64,000 nucleotides of DNA from Tethya wilhelma (lineage: Eukaryota; Porifera; Demospongiae; Tethyida; Tethyidae). Positions 4,636-26,845 of the stretch are shown here, piece by piece. Numbering within the stretch: position 1 is the first letter of the stretch; every line of letters begins with the position of its first letter. The stretch covers positions 27,033,015-27,097,014 of the forward strand of contig CAXIPT010000001.1 of NCBI GenBank assembly GCA_964030475.1. Reading direction: 5' to 3'. Under the pieces are notes generated by a model that saw nothing but the letters and a program-made list of their open reading frames with translations, did not search any database and was not told where the DNA came from. The position numbers and the translations under genes were made by a program.

Positions 4636-6219
4636 ATGGATAGCCCTGCCAAAGGCAAAGCTTCGTCTTGCTTTTCTTTTTTTCCAAAGGTGAAACGAAG
4701 AAGAAGCCTGAGAGCTAAAGGAAAATCAAACTCAGCAGCAAGGGTCTCTTGGCCAACAGTACCACGAGAACTCAGCCAAGGTATACCTGAAAGTACACCA
4801 CCATGCAACGGAGAAAAACCGGTCAGTTTCTTGACAGAAGGAAGCGTTAAGACCTTCGCCATATGCTCTGTACATTCTAAAGGGCATGCTCGTTCGGGTT
4901 CAGGTGGAGGGAGACGATCAGAAAGAATGACAGTCTACCCGTTCTTTGGTCAGTTAGCTGGTCGAGAGGTTGTTTTTGACCTTCGTACACTCTCAGAACC
5001 ATTGACGACCATAAAAGTTAAGCTGGTTGATGATTCTCGTAATGCAGTTCAATTCACTACGTTGTATCATAGACCAACTCATTCAGGAGAAAACGTCAAA
5101 GATCGGTGTGTTCGATTCTTACACAATGTAGACTCAATGAACATTCAATCTGAGAGTCTGAGAGATGGACAGCCGAAGAGTTTGCAGTTCCTTTGTAAGC
5201 AAGTGATACTTCTTCACAACCGAGACCTTGATGTTGCCAGGCTACCAAAGAAGTTTTCCTACATTCAACCGAGCCCGTCAGATTTGCAAGAAGTTTCAAT
5301 CACTGTCTGGTGGCCATGGGCCCACAAGCCTGTAACCTTGCTACAGATGAATTTGTTACAAGGGTTGTCTACTGCCGAGTTGAAGTGGATGCTGTGTCAT
5401 AGTCTGTCTTTGCCAATGAGTCCGACCTGCTTGGAGCTCTACCAAAATGATGAAATTGAAACAATGCCACTAGATGCCACACTCTGCTCAACACCATCTT
5501 TAAACTGTATTGTACAGCCAGCAATTGGTGTACACATGGCTGTTGTTGCAACATCTGTGACAACTGTAACGGTATCAATAATTGGGAAAGGAATTACCCA
5601 AATAGTCATTGAAAGATCTATGACGCTTTTTCAATTTCAACAAGCTGTTCGAGAGACGCTTTCACTGAAATCATCAAGTTTCATTTATTTCCCAAGTATA
5701 TTCCACAATGTAAAGAATGAAGTGGTTGCTGAGACTGGGCTGAAGATGACGGCAACAGTGGACAACTCTACGATTTCACTAATCAACAGTATGCGAAGAA
5801 ACTTTCCAATTGTTGATGGAGTGCCCTCCCTTCTGATGGATTACTCTAGAATTCCGCTCTATCAGCTTGCTGTAAATGAATTGGGCATATCGTCCCCTCT
5901 AGTAGGATTTGAAATCACCGGTCCTACGATTCCCCTCCAAATCAAAACTGCTCAGTGTCACAATGATCTCTCAAAAGACTTTGTGGTTGTATCACAGCAG
6001 CGGGTACATGCAGTTAGTGTCAATCCGAAGTGGACAATTTCAAATCTTTTGAAGTATATTGAATCTGTCAGCCACTTTCCATGCTACGAACTTCGAGTTG
6101 GTAAAACGGTTCTTCAGGGAAGTGCACTAGTTGGACAACATTTGACCAATAGATGTTGGTTGGTTCAATCTCATCGCGGTCTTGATTTAGCCAAGGACAT
6201 ACCTGTTATCCAGCATTAA
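4636..6219 (+). CDS. Unrecognised single-exon protein with possible ubiquitin-like repeats
   Basis: A 527-residue open frame without introns. I chose the ATG at 4636 (context gaccATGG) over non-ATG codons upstream. The N-terminal 90 residues are basic and serine-rich (VKRRRSLRAKGKSNS), suggesting a nuclear or flexible region. The remainder has a repeated rhythm of beta-strand, helix and short strands. Three segments look like ubiquitin-fold units: about residues 215-295 (from SITVWWPWAHKPVTLLQ), about 310-390 (TVTVSIIGKGITQIVIERS), and the C-terminal 75 residues (KDFVVVSQQRVHAVSVNP to TNRCWLVQSHRG). I do not recognise the family. The repeat reading is inference from the pattern of hydrophobic residues. 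A retrogene or lineage-specific gene is possible. Confidence 0.65.
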   Translation: MDSPAKGKASSCFSFFPKVKRRRSLRAKGKSNSAARVSWPTVPRELSQGIPESTPPCNGEKPVSFLTEGSVKTFAICSVHSKGHARSGSGGGRRSERMTVYPFFGQLAGREVVFDLRTLSEPLTTIKVKLVDDSRNAVQFTTLYHRPTHSGENVKDRCVRFLHNVDSMNIQSESLRDGQPKSLQFLCKQVILLHNRDLDVARLPKKFSYIQPSPSDLQEVSITVWWPWAHKPVTLLQMNLLQGLSTAELKWMLCHSLSLPMSPTCLELYQNDEIETMPLDATLCSTPSLNCIVQPAIGVHMAVVATSVTTVTVSIIGKGITQIVIERSMTLFQFQQAVRETLSLKSSSFIYFPSIFHNVKNEVVAETGLKMTATVDNSTISLINSMRRNFPIVDGVPSLLMDYSRIPLYQLAVNELGISSPLVGFEITGPTIPLQIKTAQCHNDLSKDFVVVSQQRVHAVSVNPKWTISNLLKYIESVSHFPCYELRVGKTVLQGSALVGQHLTNRCWLVQSHRGLDLAKDIPVIQH

Positions 6220-12708: not shown

Positions 12709-15700
12709 TCAATTCTGACCCTCATTATCTCCAGCAGGAGGCTTGCGTTCCTGGACCTCTTCAGTATGACCATCATCACCATTGCCAGCATTGGCCTACA
12801 TTGTGGGCGGAAAAACAATACATAATATCAATTATTAGGGGGTGGGATACAAAGCTGCAAAGTTTGGCTAAATAGAAACTTTAGCTGTCAACGGTTTAGT
12901 ATTGCTGAGGGAAATCCTAATCAGTGAAGGGTACTGAAGGGATAAGTGACAGTGTACTACACAAAACTGGCCAGGTAATTGGAAGAGAGAATTATAGGAA
13001 ATGGCAGTACCTACAATGCAAATTATAGTCATTTATTGCATTACTGTGTATTCTTCAGGACAAAGGAGTTAACTCTAAACTTGAACACTTAACCATGTGC
13101 AATGGCTTCTTCCTATACTTACATTTTCTCCATTGTTGGTTGGTCTGTTCCGTGGGCGGCGAGGCCGACGACGGCGGGGCGGGCCACGCTGGAACAGAAA
13201 CAACAACAAGTAAGTGTACTATACTTCACAGTACTCAATTTTAAGTAAGAGATGAAGTGGAGTCTGTGTCTAAAATGAGATTACTATTAGATAATGCTAG
13301 TAGGACATAAACCTCCTATTTTCAATGTTTACTGGTTGAAGTTTTGTAGGAGAGGAAAAGATACAGCAAATTAATAAGCTCATGATGCTATATAGCGCCA
13401 CTAGTTAAAGGTCTTAGAACTGAGCAACTACTGTAAATACGAGCCCTAACAATTGTTGCTGGTGTTAGACCAACACTACAATGAAGACTGATTCCATGGC
13501 ATGCCATATTCAACACACTTACAGGTGCTCCTTCACCATTTTCATTTTGCTCTCCTTGCTTCCTACGGTAGACTCTGGTACGGTAGTTCCGACGCCTGGG
13601 AGGACGATCATCACCCTTGTTCTCCTCATTACCCCCTTCACCTCCCTCACCCTAGAGGAAACATCAAAACAAATATCACACATAAACATTATCCAGCTCT
13701 ATTGCAAAAAACACGATTTCATGAATTGCGTATAGTTCTAAAGGGTCAATGGTAGTTGTTTTGTCTACAACACCAATGTGTATCGTTTGACAAAGACCTG
13801 TAGTTTCTTAAAATGGCAAGATTCAGTTTCAAAAAAATAGCTGCCCTAGTGTATTTGTTGAGTTAGGCCACACCTGTTGGCTGTGCATTATTTAGAATTT
13901 TGTGCAAGTGCAGCCTGCAGAGACAGATATCTATATTACATGACATTGCAAAGTCTTACAGTAGCTAGCGTTTTACAAGAAATTTTAAGGGAGAATTTTT
14001 TTACATCATCTTAAATAGATATTCGCAAGGAACATTTTATAGATCACAATATTGATAACTTGAAGCAATACATTTTCACGTTGAGATCCAATCCTGCCTC
14101 TCATCTATAAACCTGCTAAGCTACTTTCAGCCTTAGTTGGTAAGCCAATGTTAACTTTACACATGTACATGCTCCATATAAGCTATTTGTATATGTAATA
14201 ACCTCTTACCAAACAAATTCCTTTAAAGGCGCAGTCGCACGGAAGTAATTACGGCGCCATTTTTTTTTTGAATTCCAGGCCCAAAAATCAAAAACTCAAT
14301 CTGATTGGTTGAAATACGTCATTGGAATGTAATTATTTCGCAGTCATTGGAACGTAATTATTTCGTGCGGTTAGGGAAAACAGTAGCTGAGTAGGCTAGC
14401 AAACTAGCGAAGAGTAACACTAGAGCTTTTCATGAGCATTGGCTGTATTTGAAGAGCGTGGAGACTCATATTAGCACTGGTCTATATTCTGTGCGCAGGA
14501 ATTACGTGCAAAATACGGCTTCATTACGTCACGTAAGTTTACTTCCGTGCGACTGTGCCTTTAAGAAGAAATTAAAGCCAAACCAGTAAAAAAATCCTCT
14601 CTTGAAAATTTCCCACTATACGGTATCTTGTGTAGTTTGGCTAAGAATCCTACTACTGTAGCTTTTTTCATTGATTACAATTACCGATGTGGATCTCTTG
14701 CAGACATGCCAGTGAATGAGTTACAGCCATTGATCTAATGACTATAAACATTGACTAATGATAATATATTAGGGTAAGGCTTCTGATATGTATAGCATAT
14801 AGCTAAAAATTTTGGAGAAGAATAAACTTCAGAACACTATATAGCAATCCATGAAAAATTCTGCATCAGATTGCAATCCTTAGAACTAAAAATGCAAAGG
14901 TTTCGAAAACAGCCTGACTGGTATGTCATTGCGTCCTCCCCCTGGGTGGATCATAGCAGCCAGGAACTGGATATCAACGATGTTGGTCAAATATACTGTA
15001 GTTACACATACAAGGGTACATACATATATGTTCTACTCTACATGAAAGCACAAAGGTGTGTGGTCTGTAACAAGCAGCACTTTGTGACAGCACGTAGAAT
15101 CACAACACAATGTAGCAATTCATTAGATGAGTAGGTGTAATACTGGCAAAGCTCAATTTAGCTCAGTAGAAATCACGAAGGTGTTCCTAACTATGGTAGC
15201 ATCGTGGCTACTTTTAATGAAGAAATGAATGAATTCTTGTACTGGTAATTTCACTTCTACCATCTGCTCACACACCATAAGCACACAGAAATACAAACCT
15301 TTCAACATAGCCCAAATCCCTAATACATGTACTTGAGCTGTGACATTACAGTTCAATAACAAGCAAGTGCATTTTACTGAACAGGGCTACTACTACTACT
15401 ACTAGACTGTGCCAAACCTCATCCTCCATCCTCCTGGGAGGTCCACGGCGGTAGCCTCCTCTCCCGCGCCACCTTCTGAATGGACGCCGAGGGCGACGAC
15501 GGTCTACTTGATCCCCCTCATTCTCACCTGTGGTCATAGTGAAGGCACACATAGTTTCAACAGAACATGTATACATGCACACTTAATGTGACCAGACACT
15601 ATTGGTAAAGGTCACCATTCGTACAATGACCACATGGCCTTACACACATTCATGTACATAATAAACCGAATCCCCCAAATTGGATAACACACCTTCTGTC

Positions 15701-17285
15701 CCTTCGGTCTTGTCCTCACCCTGACTGTCTTGCTGGGGCTGACGAGGTCTGCGTGGAGGGTTACGACGTCCATAGTAACGGCGAGTATTAGGACGTCGGT
15801 CAGCTAGGGGTGCAGGCAAACTCAAGTTTAGAGCACACACTAATATCAAGACCAGAAACAACTCACGAGCATACTTGCTGCCTTGCACAGGAGCACCATT
15901 GGGACCAGTGACTTGAGCAGCTTCAGGCCCCTTGGCACCCTGAATAACGATGAACTCCACACTCTCACCATCGCCTACACTACGAAGATACTTGCGAGGG
16001 TTGTTCTTGATGATTGCAGTCTGAGAGGAGCAGGAGGAGACATGAATACAAAATATGAACACCTTTTTACCACTAACCTGATGCACGAAGATGTCTTGAC
16101 TGTTGTCATCCCTAAATGGAACAGAAGATGACAATCCATTAGTAAAATACTAACCAGTTTCTGTGTTATCCTTGTTTGTACAACCACTGAAGTTCACACG
16201 CTAGGAAAAGATTGTGGTGTCACTGGTGTAACAATCCTTAATGAAGGTACGAATGGTGCACAAGCCTCGACATGATTGATGAGTGCGGTTTCAAAGTTAA
16301 GCTCTCAGAGAAGCACAAAAGCCTTAGATCTCGTAAAGTACATTTTGCAAGACGCTACACACATTTCAGGATTCATGAACACCAGTACATGTACCTTCCA
16401 ATTTGACTCAGAGTTGTCATTCTTCAAATTATATCATAACAGGCACACTAATGGTGTGCATTATCAAGAAAAATTGCACAGTACACATAGAGACAGAAAA
16501 GCATGTGTTCAGGCCCAAACTGCTAGCTGTGTAATTCTTAATCACGAAAACCTGGCAAGCTTTTTGACTTGACGACAGTCGACTTGGAAGACTTGGCAAA
16601 CAGGTATAGATGAAGTAACTAGAGCATGTTTTCTTAATCTCTAAATTTAGCTGAGAATCACAGCTTTTTACACCACTTACACAGGCCTGGTTTATATCAC
16701 TAGACTCTACTTGCTTGGTGAATCTTTATACAGCTCTGAAAGGAAAGTTGACTAAGTGAGAACCAAAATGTACAATGGTGGTGTGCTATCTGTTATAGTG
16801 ATAATATTCATGATCACTGTGACAACAGAAGACAAACAACTCCTCAACAGGATAATGAATACCCTTACACATGGACATATCTAACATTACAACACCTCCT
16901 TTTCAGTACACTATACCTTGTGATAAATCCATAGCCACTTTTGACATTGAACCACTTCACACTTCCAGTGATGATGTCAGCTAAACGAAAAATCCAGAAA
17001 ATTAATCAATTTTGCCCATCCTGACACAACTAGCCCAGCTTAGCTCTCGGGTGAGGCAGGTATGCTTTCTCACGCCCATTGCTACACACCCCTACAATCA
17101 AAAGTCTGATAGGCACTTCATAGCACATGTTGTCTAATTTACAGCCAGACCAAAAATTAAAGGCATACCACAAAAAAGTAGCTTAAAGGGAAGAAAGAAT
17201 ACTTTTGGGGGTGTTCGATGCACTTACAAGTAACAACTCGTTGCTTAGTGTCCTCACCGGGTGATCCATTCTCGTCACTTGACAT
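12709..17285 (-). CDS. YBX1: Y-box binding protein (cold-shock domain, Arg-rich tail)
   Basis: This is a DNA/RNA-binding protein of mRNPs that controls mRNA packaging and translation. Nine exons give exactly 270 residues: 17228-17285, 16917-16980, 16078-16111, 15867-16020, 15693-15803, 15418-15527, 13523-13651, 13123-13188 and 12709-12795. A short acidic N-terminus is followed by a cold-shock domain with [16 protein letters not shown] (RNP1) and DIFVHQ (RNP2). The animal Y-box block [19 protein letters not shown] and the ending [13 protein letters not shown] follow. The tail alternates basic arginine clusters ([37 protein letters not shown]) with acidic stretches, as in vertebrate YBX proteins. 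YBX1, 2 and 3 arose within vertebrates, so the symbol marks the family. A TTAA-flanked MITE lies in one intron. Confidence 0.95.
14223..14564. mobile_element. TTAA-flanked MITE (334 bp) in a Y-box intron
   Basis: The inverted repeats AGGCGCAGTCGCACGGAAGT (from 14227) and its near-perfect complement (to 14560) are bounded on both sides by TTAA (14223-14226 and 14561-14564). TTAA is the target duplicated by piggyBac-type transposases, and also used by some Kolobok elements. There is no internal open frame, so it is non-autonomous. Confidence 0.8.
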
Positions 17286-17758
17286 GATGATTTCAGTCTA
17301 GAGATGTTGTTTCCTTTTGAAGATATGTCACGCTGATTTAGTCAGATGGCTCTAGTGACGCTTGGTGGCCAAGGTTCTGATCTCCCCTCGCCTCTTTCTT
17401 ATGCCTGCCTCTTGTGCCGTGCTAGTTGGAATGGCATGCCTTGTGGGCTAAAACGGGCCTTTTATATAATGACGTAATTGTATGTCATACGTACACAAGC
17501 TAGCCGGCCGGCCGCGAGGCGCCGGCGCGCGCTGCATATGTGAAAGGTACACATGCAAGCTACCCCCTCTATAGCTCATAGGCTGTGAAGTTTGCTAACT
17601 CCTTGCAAACAGAGTTTTAAATTTATTGATGTTATGACAAAATAAATTACTTTCATAATGCTGAAAATAAATCGGTGCAATAACTCATTCTACAACAATA
17701 ACGTGAAAACAACTACTTATGCATAGCAGATTAGCATAATGTCTGGGAGCAGTTCTGT
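17286..17758. promoter_or_regulatory. Y-box gene promoter region with CpG-rich block
   Basis: There is no coding sequence. At 17500-17535 a GC-rich patch (GCCGGCCGGCCGCGAGGCGC) stands out against AT-rich flanks about 220 bp upstream of the Y-box start. The 3' end of the carrier gene occupies the low-coordinate side. Confidence 0.4.
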
Positions 17759-20700
17759 TTATTGTGACAAAGAGTAGTTGTAGTACAGTTTGCGGAACTG
17801 TTCCAAGAAAATGAAAGTAAGCACAGTATGAGGACCAAGTCGAGCATAGTATGGTGTAAATCCCTTCCACAGGCTGAAGAACCCTTCCTTTCGAATCAGC
17901 TTGGTCCATACATCCTACACAACACAACAACAATCACAGAGGAAAGCAAACAACAGTAAAATAACTGCAGATAATTCAGTACCACAAGTTTCTACAATAC
18001 TATGTATGTACCCAAGTTCCCTGACAAAATAACAGTTGAGCAACTAAATCTACCACCCTTCCCAGCACTAATACTGCCGCAATCTATAGGTATAATCATG
18101 CAGAGGGGATGAGAGAGGGAGCATGGGAATGAGGCTAGCTCAATGACATAGAAGGAATTACACAGTTTGGCAGCTTTCCGCAAAAATTTTCCCCCATGAA
18201 AAATTCCACCTGCATGTGTATTTTATAAGACTTAGTGCTCAAGCACATGCAATGCACATAGAACACAGCCACTAGAGTGCTGACTGGTTGCTATGCTAGA
18301 ATCCTCTTAGTCTAGTGAAGCTGATTGCTGGTAATAATGCTCACTCTGCAAGAACTACAGTGGTAGCAAGTATACTGTATAGCGGTTCAGTGACATTGGT
18401 TGGTAAAGATCACCAAACTCAAATGCATAAACCGAACAATTATTGGCAAATCGGCACTTTCATCCACTGTTATGATGCATAGTTGATAATTACTTTGACA
18501 ATTTTCGTTCCAGCGAAATTGCATGCCTCATGCTAATGCACTCACCAATAATTTTATTTTTACAGTTAGGTCATAAAGATTTGAAAATTAGCAAGTATTG
18601 CTATGTAAATCGAGGTATATACTTGTTCACACTTACCACAGAGCCAGTGTATTCAGGGACTCCGTTCACAGTTGACATTGTTTGAATCCTACATAATCAT
18701 TTAATTCATTGATGGATCAGATACAAATTACTGCAATCATAAACTTACCTAGTCTTTGCAATGTCAACTGGCATGGAGGCAATAGTTGTTACCAAACCAC
18801 TTATCATACTTGCACAGAAATGACATCGTATGTCATCAACAAAGTAATCTGGATAATAAGCAGAATGTACTGTATTTAGCCACATGTACAACAATTGATA
18901 CCAACAAGATCAAAGTTTATAATCAAGGTTTAAATAATATTTGGTGGAGGACTCCTCTTTATTCTCTATCTTTCTCAATTACAACCAGCTAAACTCAAGG
19001 ATTACCACATAGCGGCAATTTTCGTAGCTTATGAATTATGCATGAGTCATTGAAATTAATGGCTGCCAAATGGAGAAGGCGCTTTTCGCCTTGTATCAAG
19101 TGACTCAATCAGAGCAACAAAAAACCAATGACAAAAGCGACTGGAGGCAAATAAACGAACGTTCAAGAATCAGCTCCTGAAGGGGAATAGTCCTTGAGAA
19201 AAGTCAAGCTAAGATAGAAGAATAAGAAGAAGATGGAGGTTTGACATAATACCGTACAGTGGGTAAATTTGGCGAATTTGCATTTTAGCATGATTGGCGA
19301 TTTAGCTCCGCATGCTACATTGTATATTTGTGCACCAAATTTACCCGCTATACAGTATTATTATTTTAGCTTGTTACTTTAGCATTGGTTTTAGGCCACG
19401 TTTTTAGGCTCATTAGAAAGCGAAAGAACTAACTAGTAGCTTAAGAAGCCTTTTAGTGCCAAACGCTCAGTTTTTGCAGAGTTATTTGCATGAATATTTG
19501 TATTGTACTAGTGATTCATCCGTGCCATTCCTGTGTACCTAGTAGTACCGTACTGGGAATTATTTCCTGGCAAAGCTATTTGAACACTTAGAAGATAATC
19601 ATGGTGTGGCATCATCATAATAATGAAAGAATCTTAAAGCTTCCTTCCAGTAAAGAAACTCAAGTGGCCACATAGATACATGCACCCAGGTAGGCATGGT
19701 TTACAAATGGCCATTTATGAACACTTTGCCACTACTGTAACTGCCTGCAATTGTAAAGACATCCCCCCTTCCCAATGACACTGTCATACCTGTTCCAAGT
19801 AGGAGTTGTTTTGCTTGTGAATATGTACCCAACTGTGCAGCGTTCACAACCATTGCTCTAATGACAGTAGGAGTACAGCCCTATGCAGACAATAGAGACA
19901 TAACCGTTAAGTCAACCAAGAAATTACACCTTTGGTTAATGCAAAAAACACACACTAAAAGTATTGCTCCTTATTATTGCCAAGCTAGAAGCTCAGCTGT
20001 AAATTCTTAAAATGGTGGAGACATTTCAAAAAGTACTATTTAGATTTTGCTTGAATGACGAGAGACATGTACACACAAATAGTTATTCAGCAAGCACACA
20101 TTGAGGGTTAAAGTACACCTGACAAGTACATATACTTCATAAAGAATGAAGCTAAAGACAAGTCTCTTACTCTCCATAATGTGACAATTCCTTCTTCTCT
20201 TGTAATTCTGAACAAGGCATCAAACACATTCTTATATCCTCTTCGCTGTTCCAAAGGCAACCTATAGGAAGAACGAGTGCAGACTCTAGTTACAATTAGT
20301 TGGGTGGTAAGGCATCATTATAGCAAAGTACTGTATACTAAAAGGCTATTTTTTTACTACTGTGGAGAATGGATGCTGGAAAAGAGTGCCTATCCTATAC
20401 AGTTATAGCCTAGAAATAAATGGCAGGTGCTCAAGTAGGGCTAGCTGCTTCTGAGATGCTGACAAGGCTTACTAATGGCATCAGTATCCAACAAACCAGC
20501 TTGATAGGGGAGACCAATTAATCTTTCACCCAGGAGCATAGCATGCATCCCAGACTAGAAATAAACTGTAGCAAATTGCAGTACACTTCAAAAATGTCCT
20601 CCATACAGTAGCCCATCAATCAGTACAGGTGAAGACAATGAATCCATTCAAGAATCATATGTGCAATTAATCATATTGACTATCCACACCATTCCTGAGT

Positions 20701-23700
20701 AGTCTGGTTGAAACTTGCTACGTACACATGTGACATTGTGTAGGGATATAGTTGGGTGACAAATGGTACCAGGCACTTCCTCTTGTACATCAACCATATC
20801 ATATACACCAAAGGAATGAGTTCAGATATCTCAAAGTTTTACTGATCTGGCAAAACGCTACGCCAGAATTGAACACTCATAGGCAATTTTGAAGGCTTTA
20901 TTTCAATGGCACCAAGTAAGCTCTTGTCATGAAAACTACTACTTTCACCCGATTCTCATTTCCCTCTGTGGTCTTTACTGTATGTGTGAGCGTATGAACA
21001 AGCAGTAAACATGGCCTGCAGTGCAAACGAAAAGTTGAGACAAGGCAGGATCAGCAACTGCCAATGTGCTGTACATGGTGATACACAAGCTTTAGCCAAA
21101 GGCACAAATCCCACAACCTACTGATATACTCCAATCAGCCAAACAAATTGACACAAATATAAATCGTATGTGATGTACCTTCCATCCGATGTCATTCTTA
21201 TTAAAGATATCTCGGCTGGAGTCCCAATAAATGCTCCAGTAGCACCAGCAACAATCCCTACAGGAAGTAGTTGAGAAATTGTTAACCCATGAAACAGGAT
21301 ATTAGGTCAACAGATTCCTTTTAAAATGCGTGATTGATTACTAATAAGTCACATGTTGACCCACACCTCTATCACACCTCCAGTCACATGCCCTAACAAA
21401 AATGCTGTTTGTTAGACTAAACAATATGGTTGAGATAGAGGTCAGTTCAACAGCCATCAGCAGTAGAGGATCACACCACTAATGGTGCCACCATACAAAT
21501 ACATGCTAGTAAGAGCAATAAACATGTCTTGCCTCAAAACCTAAGATATCACCTGATAAACACACACTACTATTAAAAACACACACTCTTGGAGCTTTAG
21601 TGCAAGTGCTATACAGCTAGGTCATTACCAAAAAAGGTAAATAATACAATGAACTTCACATGGGAACCTTCAATATATCAGACCACTCACCAATGCCAAT
21701 CTTCGTCAGAAGACCAGGTGGCTTTCCATCAGGTCTACATAAAGTGTACAGTATTCACAACATTATGCAAGAGCACTCAGAAACCCTTATTCTTTCTCTA
21801 AATCTATTTACTAACTGGGGTCAATCATAATAAAATAAGGGCCAAGAGTATATCTTCCAATGGCATGCAATACATACCCACAAAAATTGTCAAACAGAGA
21901 TTGATACACTCCCAGTCGAGTTGTACTATAGGTAGCTTGACGTAGCAGACCAGCTGAGAGGCTACAATTGATTCAGAGGAGAGAAAACATTCTTCAATAA
22001 CACCATTCAAGACTAGCTGAGTCAAGCCTTACCCATTATACAATGCAAAAAACCCCTCATTCCTGACAACTGATGATATTGCATGAAAGCTAGTTTTATG
22101 AGCTCTGATATGACCACCTTCACCTGCAAACCAACAGACATTATAATGAGTAGCCATAATACACACCAATATAACACGGCTAGGTGGAACATCCTCGGAT
22201 CATTCCTCACCACTAAGTTGCATACGATTCTTTACTAAATCCAGCGGTTGAACAAAGAATGTGGCAGCCATCCTGTGTCGAATGCATTGTGACAATCATC
22301 TTCATCAAAACAGTATCAGCATCACTAATCAAAACCGTTAGCAAATGTGTGAACATCTCTACAAGAGATGTACTACACTGTGGAAGGCACGCTAACCTAC
22401 TAGGTTCATAAACCAGGCCCTCCCCGCTAAGCTTATTGCTAAGTGCTTAGCAATATAAAGCATACAGGGAGGGCCTGGTTTACGAGGCTAGTAATCTATA
22501 TGTACAGAGAGAATGTTGACTAATGTTGCATAAAAGTCAATCGGGATTGAAGACAAAAAATATGTATAGGCTAAGCAATACTATAAATAGTGTCATAGCC
22601 AAACGTATGCAGAACATTGATTGTCCCTGATCCATATGGCACAGTCAGATGGGCTGCCACATTTCAAGGATTGTCAACTTGCTAGAAATAGTGTGCAACA
22701 GTATACATATACATACATGGAAACTGGTCACTTTACTACACATACAATTATAAGTGTAAGTATAGTGCTACAGTCATGAAAACAAGGGATTGATCTAATA
22801 TCACAGAGTGTATTTTGATCAATCCATTAAAATGTATGTTCACAATCTGTTGTATCATAGGGAAAAGATATCTCCAATAGCTACAAAAAGCTTGGTAAAG
22901 TAGGCATCATTAATTAAATCCTAATACATATAATTTTGCTGCAAGGCAAAGTTACCCATGATACAAATTATGAACTTACAGACACATACGTACACACATG
23001 GCAAGAAAAGTGACAAACAGTAAATGCTCATAGACATTCCAAAACATAAAGGGATCATAGATATACACATGTCCACCCCCCACAGTCAAAGATCACGGTG
23101 GATCTTACGCACCACTGAGTTGCATACGATTCTTGATGAGATCCAAAGGCTGGGTAACAAACACTGATGTACACCTGCACAGGATAGAGATTACTAAGAA
23201 ATCCAGGGAGGAGGCTGGGGGAAATGATAGCATTAGCTGTGATACATGCATGCAATACAGCAAGAATTATGACCAAACAGTAGCCTGGGTCTCAGGCCCT
23301 TCCCACGGTACCTGGGAATAGGGTTACATTAGTGGTATATGAGTGTATTGTCGTACTAGTACGATAATATCAAACACCTTCACACCTTCACACAATTGTA
23401 TACCGTAGATTGCGAAATTTTCGTGTTAAAATTCATCACTGCACTACACAGCCCTACCCACTATTTTACAATTTTTGTGCGTTTAATTTTCGTACTCCAC
23501 AGCGACTACGAAAATTTATCAAGTATGAATTTTTCACAATTTACGGTAGTTCAAGAGTATACAAAGGCACTCTTGCCATTAATAGGAAATTGTAATGTTA
23601 ATGGTCTCTTCTTTGCCAAATGAGAAGTATTAACTTTACATTTGGATGTTATTTCCCGGATATCTTATTAGAAGAACAACACTTTTAACAAGAAGAGCTG

Positions 23701-24938
23701 CAACACTTTAGAGTAAAGTGTATGCAGGGGGATTCTACTCCATTAGCTTCAGTTGAGAATCACCATGAGAATAATGATTTACAGAATCAGAAATTTCATG
23801 TCTCATCAGTGCTACTCGGCCAATATTACTGGTGCACCAATATTATTGTTACACTCTACAGAGAGTAGCACACAATAAAGAGAGCTAATAACACATAGAA
23901 GAGAAGAGACTCTATACCAGCACACAATTAATTGCCACTACCAAATAATTGGAAAATTGAAGTTTACCACATCATATTTCCACTCATAAACATTGATTAC
24001 CACAACTGCATATACAGAACAGGCAATCTGCACATGGACAAAACCAGGGGTGTTCAAGTTATAAAAAGGAAATAGATCATTTGCTTCCAGTTCCTTAGTA
24101 GAAGGAACTAAGGAAACTGTATAACATTCTTGTGTACAAACAATCTATTCATTACAAATTTCCTTAAAGTGGTATAATATTTGATCATTTCCCAAACCAT
24201 ACACTTAGATATACCATACAATACTTGTTGCACATCACAAAAAATTGCTGCTAAAACAATCAGCAAAGTTAGATGTGGTGATCTGAACCAATTGTAGGGT
24301 GACATTTTACTGAAATATCCACCAACAGCAAAAACTAAACACACAAAATCCTTTCGCAGGTTTGTAAGTTTTTGCATAGTAATCACCCAATGTACCGTAC
24401 AATACAACTACAAGCAAGAGCTTATTGCTTGTTAACAAACCAGACACACCATGAATAAGTATGATCTAGGTGTTAGCAAAACTCTTTGCATCAAAACACA
24501 CTTGGCAGCAATAACTTGCATAGTTATTGTTCCCCATATGCAAAACACATACTAGACCTCACTGACAAAGGTCAGTTGACCCATTTGTAGGTCTTAGGTT
24601 AATGTAACAAATGAACTTTGACCAAGTTCATAAGTTTAAATAAGGAAGTTATTATACAAAAGTACATGTAGCCCTGGTTTTGAAAAGAACACCAAGCAGC
24701 TTTGCTGGTTTGTGTGTACTTGTTGCTCTGCACACAACACAAACAACGATGTAGCAGCTTTGTATCAAACTGTAGATAATTTGAACAGCTCTACAGGCAT
24801 CAACTATAATTTTACAATTCACACTCACCCTGCCATTCCTCCAAGAACGAAATTGATTGCCTTAGGAATGGCTCCATGAGGTACCACACTCTTGGGCGAC
24901 TTAGCAGCCAACTCTCTCCTCTTCTCAGCATAAGCCAT
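17759..24938 (-). CDS. SLC25A11: Mitochondrial 2-oxoglutarate/malate carrier with alternative exon 2
   Basis: This inner-membrane antiporter exchanges 2-oxoglutarate for malate, part of the malate-aspartate shuttle. Eleven exons are used per transcript: 24829-24938, one of two exon 2 copies, 22033-22123, 21878-21961, 21691-21734, 21179-21257, 20171-20261, 19790-19880, 18749-18848, 18637-18688 and 17759-17914. They give 319 residues, against 314 in human. All three carrier signatures are present: QPLDL(I/V)KNRMQLSG, GTPAEISLIRMTSDG and SMPVDIAKTRIQ. The hallmark blocks LSAGLLRQATYSTTRLGVY and GFTPYYARLGPHTVLTFIF are characteristic of this carrier rather than its paralogues. Exon 2 exists twice (23113-23174 and 22211-22272), with identical 62-nt length and phase. 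AATAAA overlaps the stop codon on the minus strand. The ATG at 24938 opens the only frame that joins exon 2. Confidence 0.95.
19250..19357. repeat. Short MITE (108 bp), TACNGTAYAGYGGGTAAATTTGG termini
   Basis: The ends at 19250-19272 and 19335-19357 are inverted copies with a few mismatches (TACCGTACAGTGGGTAAATT versus TACTGTATAGCGGGTAAATT). It lies in a carrier-gene intron and belongs to the TACNGTA-ended MITE group seen elsewhere in this window. Confidence 0.7.
22211..22272 (-). other. SLC25A11: SLC25A11 alternative exon 2b (canonical version)
   Basis: This 62-nt exon has acceptor cacag and donor GTGAGG. It encodes the end of the first transmembrane helix and signature 1 as GMAATFFVQPLDLVKNRMQ. 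This matches the vertebrate sequence most closely. Confidence 0.9.
22405..22486. repeat. Short hairpin repeat (GTAAACCAGG family), copy 2
   Basis: An imperfect palindrome with TTCATAAACCAGGCCCTCCC at one end and GGGAGGGCCTGGTTTACGAG at the other. It is related to the copy at 10256-10325. It lies between the two alternative exons of the carrier gene. Confidence 0.7.
23113..23174 (-). other. SLC25A11: SLC25A11 alternative exon 2a (divergent version)
   Basis: This 62-nt exon has acceptor gtgcag and donor GTGCGT. It encodes GCTSVFVTQPLDLIKNRMQ. It replaces exon 2b in exactly the same phase (2 in, 1 out), with a different stretch before the conserved Q-P-L-D-L. Confidence 0.88.
23401..23548. repeat. 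TTTTCG-rich palindromic MITE
   Basis: It starts TACCGTAGATTGCGAAATTTTC and ends with the inverted form TTCACAATTTACGGTA. It lies in the first intron of the carrier gene. Confidence 0.6.
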
Positions 24939-25055
24939 GGTTTTTTGTCTGGTATTTCCGAAGATTTGTCTAAGCAAAAGCCAGCACTGCTTATTTTATA
25001 CTCAAAACATACAGTGCTCTTTATTTAGAAATTTGTGTCCTTAGCAACAGGTGAC

Positions 25056-25067
25056 TGCGCATGCGCA
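25056..25067. promoter_or_regulatory. Palindromic NRF-1 motif in the carrier promoter
   Basis: TGCGCATGCGCA is a perfect match to the NRF-1 consensus YGCGCAYGCGCR, about 120 bp upstream of the SLC25A11 start codon. A second partial motif (AATGCGCG) follows it. NRF-1 is known to control nuclear genes for mitochondrial proteins. Binding here is inferred. Confidence 0.6.
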
Positions 25068-25321
25068 AATGCGCGTGGAAAACACAGGACAATGAATACT
25101 GTATTGATTGTAGAAACAGTATTACAAAAATTATAATGCTTTTGAAGTTAACATCAACTTAGCTAACTTCTGCATATCCTAAATACAAAAAACATGATAT
25201 TTATTACATGACTGTGTGTTTTGCAGAATACTTGCATGGCTAATTAATTGTAGATCTTGTTTTCATTCATCGTTCCCTACAATAAATTATGATTAATGGT
25301 TGGAAGATTCACAGGTTCCAT

Positions 25322-26845
25322 CTATAGTGGTATAGACCTACCAACTTCAATTTCCACTGAGGCTGATACAAGTTCACTTCCAGATATAGCAGTGCAGACA
25401 TATGTTCCTGAATTGCTAGTACGAGCATCCAAAATGGCAAGAAAGGATCGTGGTCCAGATATATTCACAACAAGTACATTAATGGGAGTAGGTTCATCTT
25501 GAGATAACTCATTCTGGCCCTACAAGTAAAATTAAAGCATTCTGGAGCTAATCAAAGGAACTTAAAGACAGTTAAGCCTCACCTGTACTCTTACTGGTGA
25601 GCCATTAAATTGCCACGAAAATTTAGAAACATTTTGATTGGCTTCACAAATAAGAGAATGATTTGCTCCCAGATTGACAACAGCAATGTTCACACTCAGG
25701 GCTTCAGGAGTAGCTACATGAAAGAACATAATGAAATGATAACAGAGTTGAACGTCTTTAGGACATTTATTTTTATACTGAAACATAATTTTGCCCGTCT
25801 GCATATCATAAGTAGTAGTGTAGTGGGAAAATTTTAGCTGACTCAAATTTTCAAGGCATACATGCCATTTTAAATTTTAAGTCTATAACATCTAACAACT
25901 ATACTGGCAAACTACTTGACTGAGTAACAGTTAATATTATGTTCTAACTATTAACCTTCCCTATGATTGCTCTAAATCTTCATGATCCAATCACAAATAT
26001 TCGGCACAATCAATCCAGTATGCATAAACTAAGTACTTACAAATAAATGAAATAAAAGCTTCACTTGTAGCAGAAACTCCACGACAATTGGCAGCACAAA
26101 TGTACTTTCCAGTATCTTGTTCAGAAACATTAGCAATAAATAGTAAAGCTGTAACATCATTTGTTCTCTGCATAATTGTTATCTGGGGAGAAAAAATGGT
26201 GGGGTGTGCATGTGTAAGACAATTACTATTTTTAAATTTTTATTTTTAAATTTAAACAGCTTGCAGTGTACATCAGGCCAGATTGAGAAGAAAATGGAAA
26301 TTACTTTTGCTTGTGAAGGAAGTTCCTGCTCTGATTTTCTCCACAGAAGCACCACATCTGGACAATCACAAATGGCAGTGCAGAGCAACTCTACTGATGA
26401 ACCAGCATCAACCTCAACAGTAGTAGGTTCAATAGATAGTTCAAGTTCTGGCACTGCAAAATCAATAAATAAGCATAATTCATGATGGCAATAATGAATT
26501 AAAGTTAGCTGCAGCAGTAAGTAACTGTTAGCTAGAACAAGAAACTCTGCAAGTATGCATTCGAGAGATAACTCTAGTTAACAAAACAATTGAAACCCTT
26601 ACACGGAAAACAGTATTATCACAAAAAAAGCTCAGCAACTAAAATTCTACTCATCTCTGAGACTCAGATCATACCTCAGAGTCTGATATCTAAGCACCAT
26701 TAGAGGCTTTAGGCTGAAGAGAATATGGAGAAAGGAGAAAACAGATAGACTCGATAGTCTAGCCTAGCTGGGTCTCTGCTATAATGCCGTAATCAGTATT
26801 TAAGAAAAAATTAGCCTCAAATTCACATTCTTGTATATATGCATG

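Follow-up and report, generated by a model that had tools for sequence, protein, structure and literature searches.

An old tandem duplication of the second coding exon has very probably left the SLC25A11 gene of the demosponge Tethya wilhelma with a pair of mutually exclusive exons, through which one gene would make both the usual 2-oxoglutarate/malate carrier and a second carrier with an altered face of transmembrane helix 1. The pair is real and conserved and is probably working, and confidence that it is used in a mutually exclusive way is high on the basis of comparison and of the reading frame. The gene lies in a stretch of 64,000 nucleotides, analysed as a whole and here called the window. 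If both forms are made, sponges would regulate mitochondrial metabolite exchange by the choice of an exon, and the gene would offer a natural experiment on the role of helix 1 in SLC25 carriers, with two long-kept versions of one protein set apart by a handful of residues on a single face of a helix.

The complete mitochondrial carrier gene occupies 17759-24938 on the minus strand of the window and has 11 coding exon positions encoding 319 residues. The coding part of E1 (24829..24938, 110 nt; minus strand, as for all exons and introns given here) runs from the start codon to ...GGMAG plus two bases and has the donor gtgagt. Position 2 is filled by either E2b (23113..23174, 62 nt, GCTSVFVTQPLDLIKNRMQLS(G)) or E2a (22211..22272, 62 nt, GMAATFFVQPLDLVKNRMQLS(G)); E2b is the upstream alternative in the direction of transcription, and an intron of 840 nt (22273..23112) separates it from E2a, whose type is found in 128/135 fetched carriers. 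E3 (22033..22123, 91 nt) lies 87 nt beyond E2a and is followed by E4 (21878..21961, 84 nt), E5 (21691..21734, 44 nt), E6 (21179..21257, 79 nt), E7 (20171..20261, 91 nt), E8 (19790..19880, 91 nt), E9 (18749..18848, 100 nt), E10 (18637..18688, 52 nt) and E11 (17759..17914, 156 nt), which has TAA at its end. The introns of either spliced form are GT-AG throughout (10/10).

Both versions of the product contain three stretches matching Pfam Mito_carr (PF00153; 216.1 bits in each, E-values 3.9e-65 and 3.7e-65), and these three repeats place it in the SLC25 mitochondrial carrier family. Among the best 120 of 1880 matches in the protein search, the named top relatives are nearly all 2-oxoglutarate/malate carriers, and those of Halichondria panicea (P0003, 78% identity over 93%) and Amphimedon queenslandica (P0004, 77% over 97%) both bear that name; the best match overall in this set, P0001 (81%), has no product name, and rank 2 is held by P0002, a 552-residue product, also without a name, at 48%. 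In the library of solved structures the nearest entries are UCP2 and UCP1. The gene is predicted to be the demosponge orthologue of SLC25A11, and the identity given in the earlier note is upheld, since the closest named relatives over the whole length, among the best 120 of 1880, are 2-oxoglutarate/malate carriers. In a protein tree of 29 rows (28 of the 135 carriers plus the window), the window carrier groups with Halichondria, Amphimedon, Geodia and four further rows at a support of 90/89, which is below the 95/80 mark; it is called a demosponge carrier because of this place, and the calcareous sponge Sycon is placed with sea urchin and sea star in the same tree.

E2a and E2b have equal phases, both entering after codon position 2 and leaving after codon position 1. 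The acceptor and donor of E2a read ...acacag|G and G|gtgagg, and those of E2b ...gtgcag|G and G|gtgcgt. The two exons agree at 39/62 nt, and of the 21 codons compared, 8 are the same, 6 have silent differences and 7 code for another residue; a repeat finder also paired the two sites unprompted (48 nt, 79%, spacing 902). The earlier note had reported two homologous 62-nt exons with the same entry and exit phases at these places, and both their coordinates and their GT-AG ends were confirmed, while the peptides GMAATFFVQPLDL and GCTSVFVTQPLDL are as it had read them. Neighbouring, homologous, of like length and the same phase, and each with its own splice sites, the exons have the features by which mutually exclusive exons are recognised. 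Joined as E1-E2a-E3..E11 or as E1-E2b-E3..E11, the exons form in each case an open frame of 319 codons. Double inclusion (E1-E2b-E2a) runs into a stop after 69 residues and double skipping (E1-E3) after 37, so the proposal that both exons or neither would break the frame holds. What the frame argument implies is that double inclusion and double skipping are unproductive; it is not in itself a mechanism of splicing.

The background of such exons was counted on both strands of the window as stretches of 62 nt, open in the right phase, with AG before and GT after. There are 168 of these (72 on the plus strand and 96 on the minus strand), E2a and E2b among them, and when they are scored against the 2a peptide with BLOSUM62, E2a reaches 104, E2b 74 and the next best 17. 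A second copy of this quality is far beyond what chance would give. No third one turned up when the minus strand was scanned without gaps over 17000-26500; the next best score there, 22, belongs to E9, where the third repeat has its homologous motif.

The segment that is exchanged lies in helix 1, as had been suggested, and takes in the P-x-D hinge motif itself as well as residues before it. Positions are numbered backwards from the proline of the first P-x-D hinge motif, and 135 proteins were compared: 128 of 2a type, 4 of 2b type, and P0005, P0007 and P0133, which are without that stretch and were left out of the residue counts. The 128 2a-type carriers, which were selected for their similarity to the query and do not form an independent sample, have M at position -8 in 125 cases, C in 2 and I in 1, with A at -6 in 126, T at -5 in 126, F at -3 in 118 and V at -2 in all 128. 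At -8, -6, -5, -3 and -2 the four 2b rows carry C, A, V, V and T, and the 2b of the window has S at -6. Relative to 2a, the changes in 2b are M to C (-8), T to V (-5) and V to T (-2), at three positions on one side of the helix. The hinge P, D and K and the later Q are identical in 2a and 2b, and the motif PLDL(V/I)KNRMQ is kept.

In the structure-library alignment, the threonine at -5 aligns with the aspartate of UCP1 and UCP2. A passage of PMC10413660 places D28 of human UCP1 in the binding-site region, paired with R277, and describes it as absent in oxoglutarate carriers. For the ADP/ATP carrier TtAac, K30 is given as a substrate-binding residue in a passage of PMC7611774 and K40 as the lysine of the same motif in one of PMC9104175, and counting back from that motif lysine puts K30 at -5. 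Because -5 is the position of both UCP1 D28 and TtAac K30, the exon pair would replace threonine by valine at a known substrate-site position of helix 1 and place a threonine at -2. The effect of the helix-1 changes may be small, since the family's main substrate contact points are named on the even-numbered helices in the same passage of PMC7611774. A search for mutants of the -5 threonine in the bovine carrier gave nothing usable among the best-ranked literature matches. The exchange can also be read as a displacement: when the pair of P0124, an open frame that holds both versions, is aligned with gaps (MGATVFV-QP versus CGA-VFVTQP), 18/20 residues agree, compared with 15/21 ungapped (by eye), as though VFV had been shifted along the helix by one position.

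AlphaFold2 models were made from 30-sequence alignments for the Halichondria 2b form (P0003) and the Amphimedon 2a form (P0004). Their mean pLDDT is 83.0 and 83.1 respectively, and they have the same order of helices with helix 1 unbroken and with exon 2 inside it except for its final two or three residues. The best PDB match of the P0003 model is UCP1 (TMq 0.80), so that the Halichondria 2b form has the carrier fold. Both forms are thus predicted to fit this fold; on a functional difference the models say nothing.

The 2b version is present in several demosponges, and the P0124 contig holds a 2b-2a tandem. Residues 20-60 of the 2b form, used as a protein query, gave 32 of 37 candidates, and the 2b part of P0124 gave 4 of 4. 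Besides the window, a 2b-type segment is present in four proteins, P0003 (Halichondria panicea, "isoform X1"), P0121 (Geodia barretti), P0124 and P0135, and the other 29 rows from the residues 20-60 query are 2a-type. These four segments have 19-20/21 residues as in the 2b of the window (P0003, 19/21; P0121, 20/21), compared with 14/21 between window 2b and its own 2a, 12-14/21 against seven 2a-type carriers and 15/20 against an eighth, P0005. Over the residues encoded by the other exons, the window matches Geodia at 121/167 and Halichondria at 218/276 aligned positions. Part of the close agreement of 2b between genera comes from the second half of exon 2, which is nearly invariant across carriers, and 2a is also 18-19/21 in most comparisons; the telling part is the first half, in which C, V, F, V and T are common to the four 2b rows and the window. 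These common residues indicate that the 2b version is old and that 2a and 2b separated before these sponges did. Halichondria belongs to the Suberitida and Geodia to the Tetractinellida, both within the Heteroscleromorpha.

The strongest comparative evidence is P0124, a single 191-residue open frame in which 2b is followed by 2a, the order seen in the window; its contig, of 2404 bases, is evidently genomic. It reads ...C-R-CGAVFVTQPLDLIKNRMQLSG-K... and, 117 codons later, ...C-R-MGATVFVQPLDLVKNRMQLSG-E..., and the residues at the edges are those expected from cag|G and G|gt splice sites in frame. By this reading, P0124 would be a tandem of 2b and 2a in another genome, with an intron of about 350 nt. 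P0135 is likewise an open frame with 2b, and its edges resemble splice sites as those of P0124 do.

P0007 is a partial 2b-like frame that starts inside the segment and reads FITQPLDLIK after its first letter, with a threonine where the 2b rows have it; its start was set by the gene caller inside exon 2, and the junction with exon 1 falls outside the frame. The first letter, M, may represent a GTG start, as window 2b has GTG at that place. On a contig of 1747 bases, P0007 continues unbroken through the parts that correspond to nine later exons in the window, and P0001, of 2a type, does likewise on a contig of 1276 bases; both probably come from spliced RNA. The two agree at 249/270 residues downstream and both group with Geodia at a support of 100/99, and because they are nearly alike and group together, close relatives appear to carry both forms. 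Candidate joined 2b forms in relatives are the proteins P0003, P0007 and P0121. P0003 and P0121 are database protein entries, and the premature, odd end of P0121 is what a faulty gene model would produce. Clustering of the protein database at 90% conceals isoforms that belong to a single gene.

In the explanation proposed here, the 62-nt second coding exon was duplicated in tandem long ago, after which E1-E2a-E3 would yield the usual carrier and E1-E2b-E3 a second carrier, also of full length, whose helix 1 presents a different face. Each mRNA would take one exon, a regulator would have to choose between E2a and E2b, and mRNAs with both exons or with none would be removed or yield no carrier because of the frame shift. 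The changes from M to C, T to V and V to T would leave the hinge motif intact but alter substrate affinity, rate or gating. It is unlikely that both isoforms are made but are functionally equal, a redundancy kept by carrier constraint alone. Such equality would suit the unchanged hinge motif and length and the equal confidence of the two models, but plain carrier constraint should keep M, T and V, which are near-invariant in the 128 carriers, whereas 2b holds a different fixed set.

The splice sites of the pair are ordinary. The donors of E2a and E2b each match GTRAGT at 5/6 positions, and the acceptors have 12/18 and 10/18 pyrimidines for the two exons. Neither steric nor U2/U12 incompatibility was found between E2b and E2a: both are GT-AG exons, and a spacing of 840 nt is too long for steric exclusion. 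No sequence feature that prevents the joining of E2b to E2a was found, the spacing being permissive. Among 629 human mutually exclusive clusters, a passage of PMC5740500 attributes 57 and 5 to steric and U2/U12 incompatibility, respectively, and gives 377/629 as those in which the frame makes double inclusion or skipping useless.

The intron between E2b and E2a contains a hairpin-forming, MITE-like dispersed repeat (22395..22500, minus strand; 27-nt arms, 89% complementary), whose family has at least 78 matches in the genome with both strands counted (40 of 139 candidates scored). The hairpin was considered as a splicing element, and no special role is claimed for it because it belongs to a dispersed family; its presence indicates that this intron tolerates insertions. 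Docking or selector pairing of one intron with another was also considered, and the longest such pairs, for example 22979-22998 with 24711-24730 (75%), are unremarkable by eye. The pair might be thought mainly to lower output, double inclusion or skipping causing a frame shift and mRNA decay in a switch of the poison-exon type. The early stops after 69 and 37 residues would serve such a switch, and the spacing does not forbid double inclusion. It is nevertheless a distinctly improbable account, as there is no need for a plain poison exon to preserve a carrier-like peptide, and 2b keeps the hinge motif and its diagnostic residues across genera; furthermore, 2b alone gives a full-length carrier, and a poison role and an isoform role could coexist.

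It is very improbable that E2b is a decaying, unused duplicate and that the gene makes the 2a form only. The exon does depart from residues nearly invariant in other carriers, but it has an open frame, the exact length and phase and good splice sites, and its departing residues, C, V, V and T, recur unchanged in Halichondria, Geodia and two more contigs, an agreement that decay would not produce.

A second copy of the SLC25A11 gene as a source of 2b was not found in this assembly, where the 2b query gave two clear matches, E2a and E2b themselves. The whole-protein search of the sponge's own genome returned 14 matches, 9 within the SLC25A11 gene and 5 elsewhere, the latter being matches of 28-31% to other carriers and one of 27 residues at 74% (C1:12116357-12116437). 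This last was rejected as a second gene copy: it belongs to a different carrier gene, in which LGGVSSAGAAAVTHPLDLLK replaces exon 2 and short pieces elsewhere match at 58, 50 and 63%. That gene (L022:1921-4050, contig C1) has a last part 74% like that of the window carrier over 27 residues and a different helix 1, AAAVTHPLDLLK; from this motif it is perhaps a dicarboxylate carrier.

A weak tandem match on contig C2 (L019, L020) was tried as a similar pair in another carrier gene and rejected, being the exact duplication of a larger stretch. The tandem copies (L021:4010-4309 and 4903-5202, spacing 893) lie in another SLC25 carrier gene with an N nearby, and an assembly error or a recent duplication is the likelier cause. 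Although this exact repeat in a carrier gene of the same assembly resembles an assembly error, the chance that E2a and E2b are themselves such an error or collapsed alleles is negligible, as they agree at 39/62 nt only and P0124 has the pair in the same order on a separate contig with a different sequence.

Mutually exclusive exons that arise by tandem duplication are of a known kind; the gene and the animal group are unexpected. The earlier note knew of no such exon pair described for this carrier, and the literature agrees in that no description of one in SLC25A11 was found among the best-ranked matches in open-licence papers. Sponge database names, however, already carry isoform labels, the Halichondria "isoform X1" being the 2b form and the Amphimedon "isoform X2" the 2a form, so SLC25A11 isoforms are annotated in two sponges.

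The closest precedent is SLC25A3, of the same superfamily and likewise with tandem exons used one at a time. A passage of PMC2636774 describes two phosphate carriers made from its mutually exclusive exons 3A and 3B, with reported differences in affinity, transport rate and tissue, and according to one of PMC7226361 exon 3A encodes part of the translocation cavity and is the site of the disease mutation Gly72Glu. SLC25A3 differs in being another carrier with another substrate and an independent gene, and in the mammalian tissue and kinetic data described for it, whereas the sponge pair is known from sequence. Going by the passage on the cavity, both pairs probably cover helix 1. A wider and still tentative proposal, somewhat short of an even chance, is that demosponges have, since before the split of Suberitida and Tetractinellida, switched one 2-oxoglutarate/malate carrier between two substrate-site forms by exon choice, replacing a cavity-facing stripe of helix 1 or shifting the register of VFV by one residue. 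This would be an independent parallel of SLC25A3 3A/3B and would make helix 1 a repeatedly chosen tuning site of mitochondrial carriers.

Exons 4a and 4b of OGDH, as described in a passage of PMC7969005, are likewise a mutually exclusive pair in 2-oxoglutarate metabolism. OGDH is a soluble enzyme, and the 840-nt sponge intron, which tolerates insertions, is unlike the intron between OGDH 4a and 4b in that passage. The human clusters with frame-shifting, mutually exclusive exons (PMC5740500, in the part cited above) were validated by splice-junction reads, in contrast to the sequence-based sponge pair.

Downstream of the carrier gene on the same strand, at about 15643-17285 of the window (minus strand), is a gene with a split cold-shock domain (Pfam CSD, two open frames), which looks like a Y-box protein gene. 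Upstream, at about 25325-26480 and also on the minus strand, immunoglobulin-like stretches are encoded, as judged by eye.
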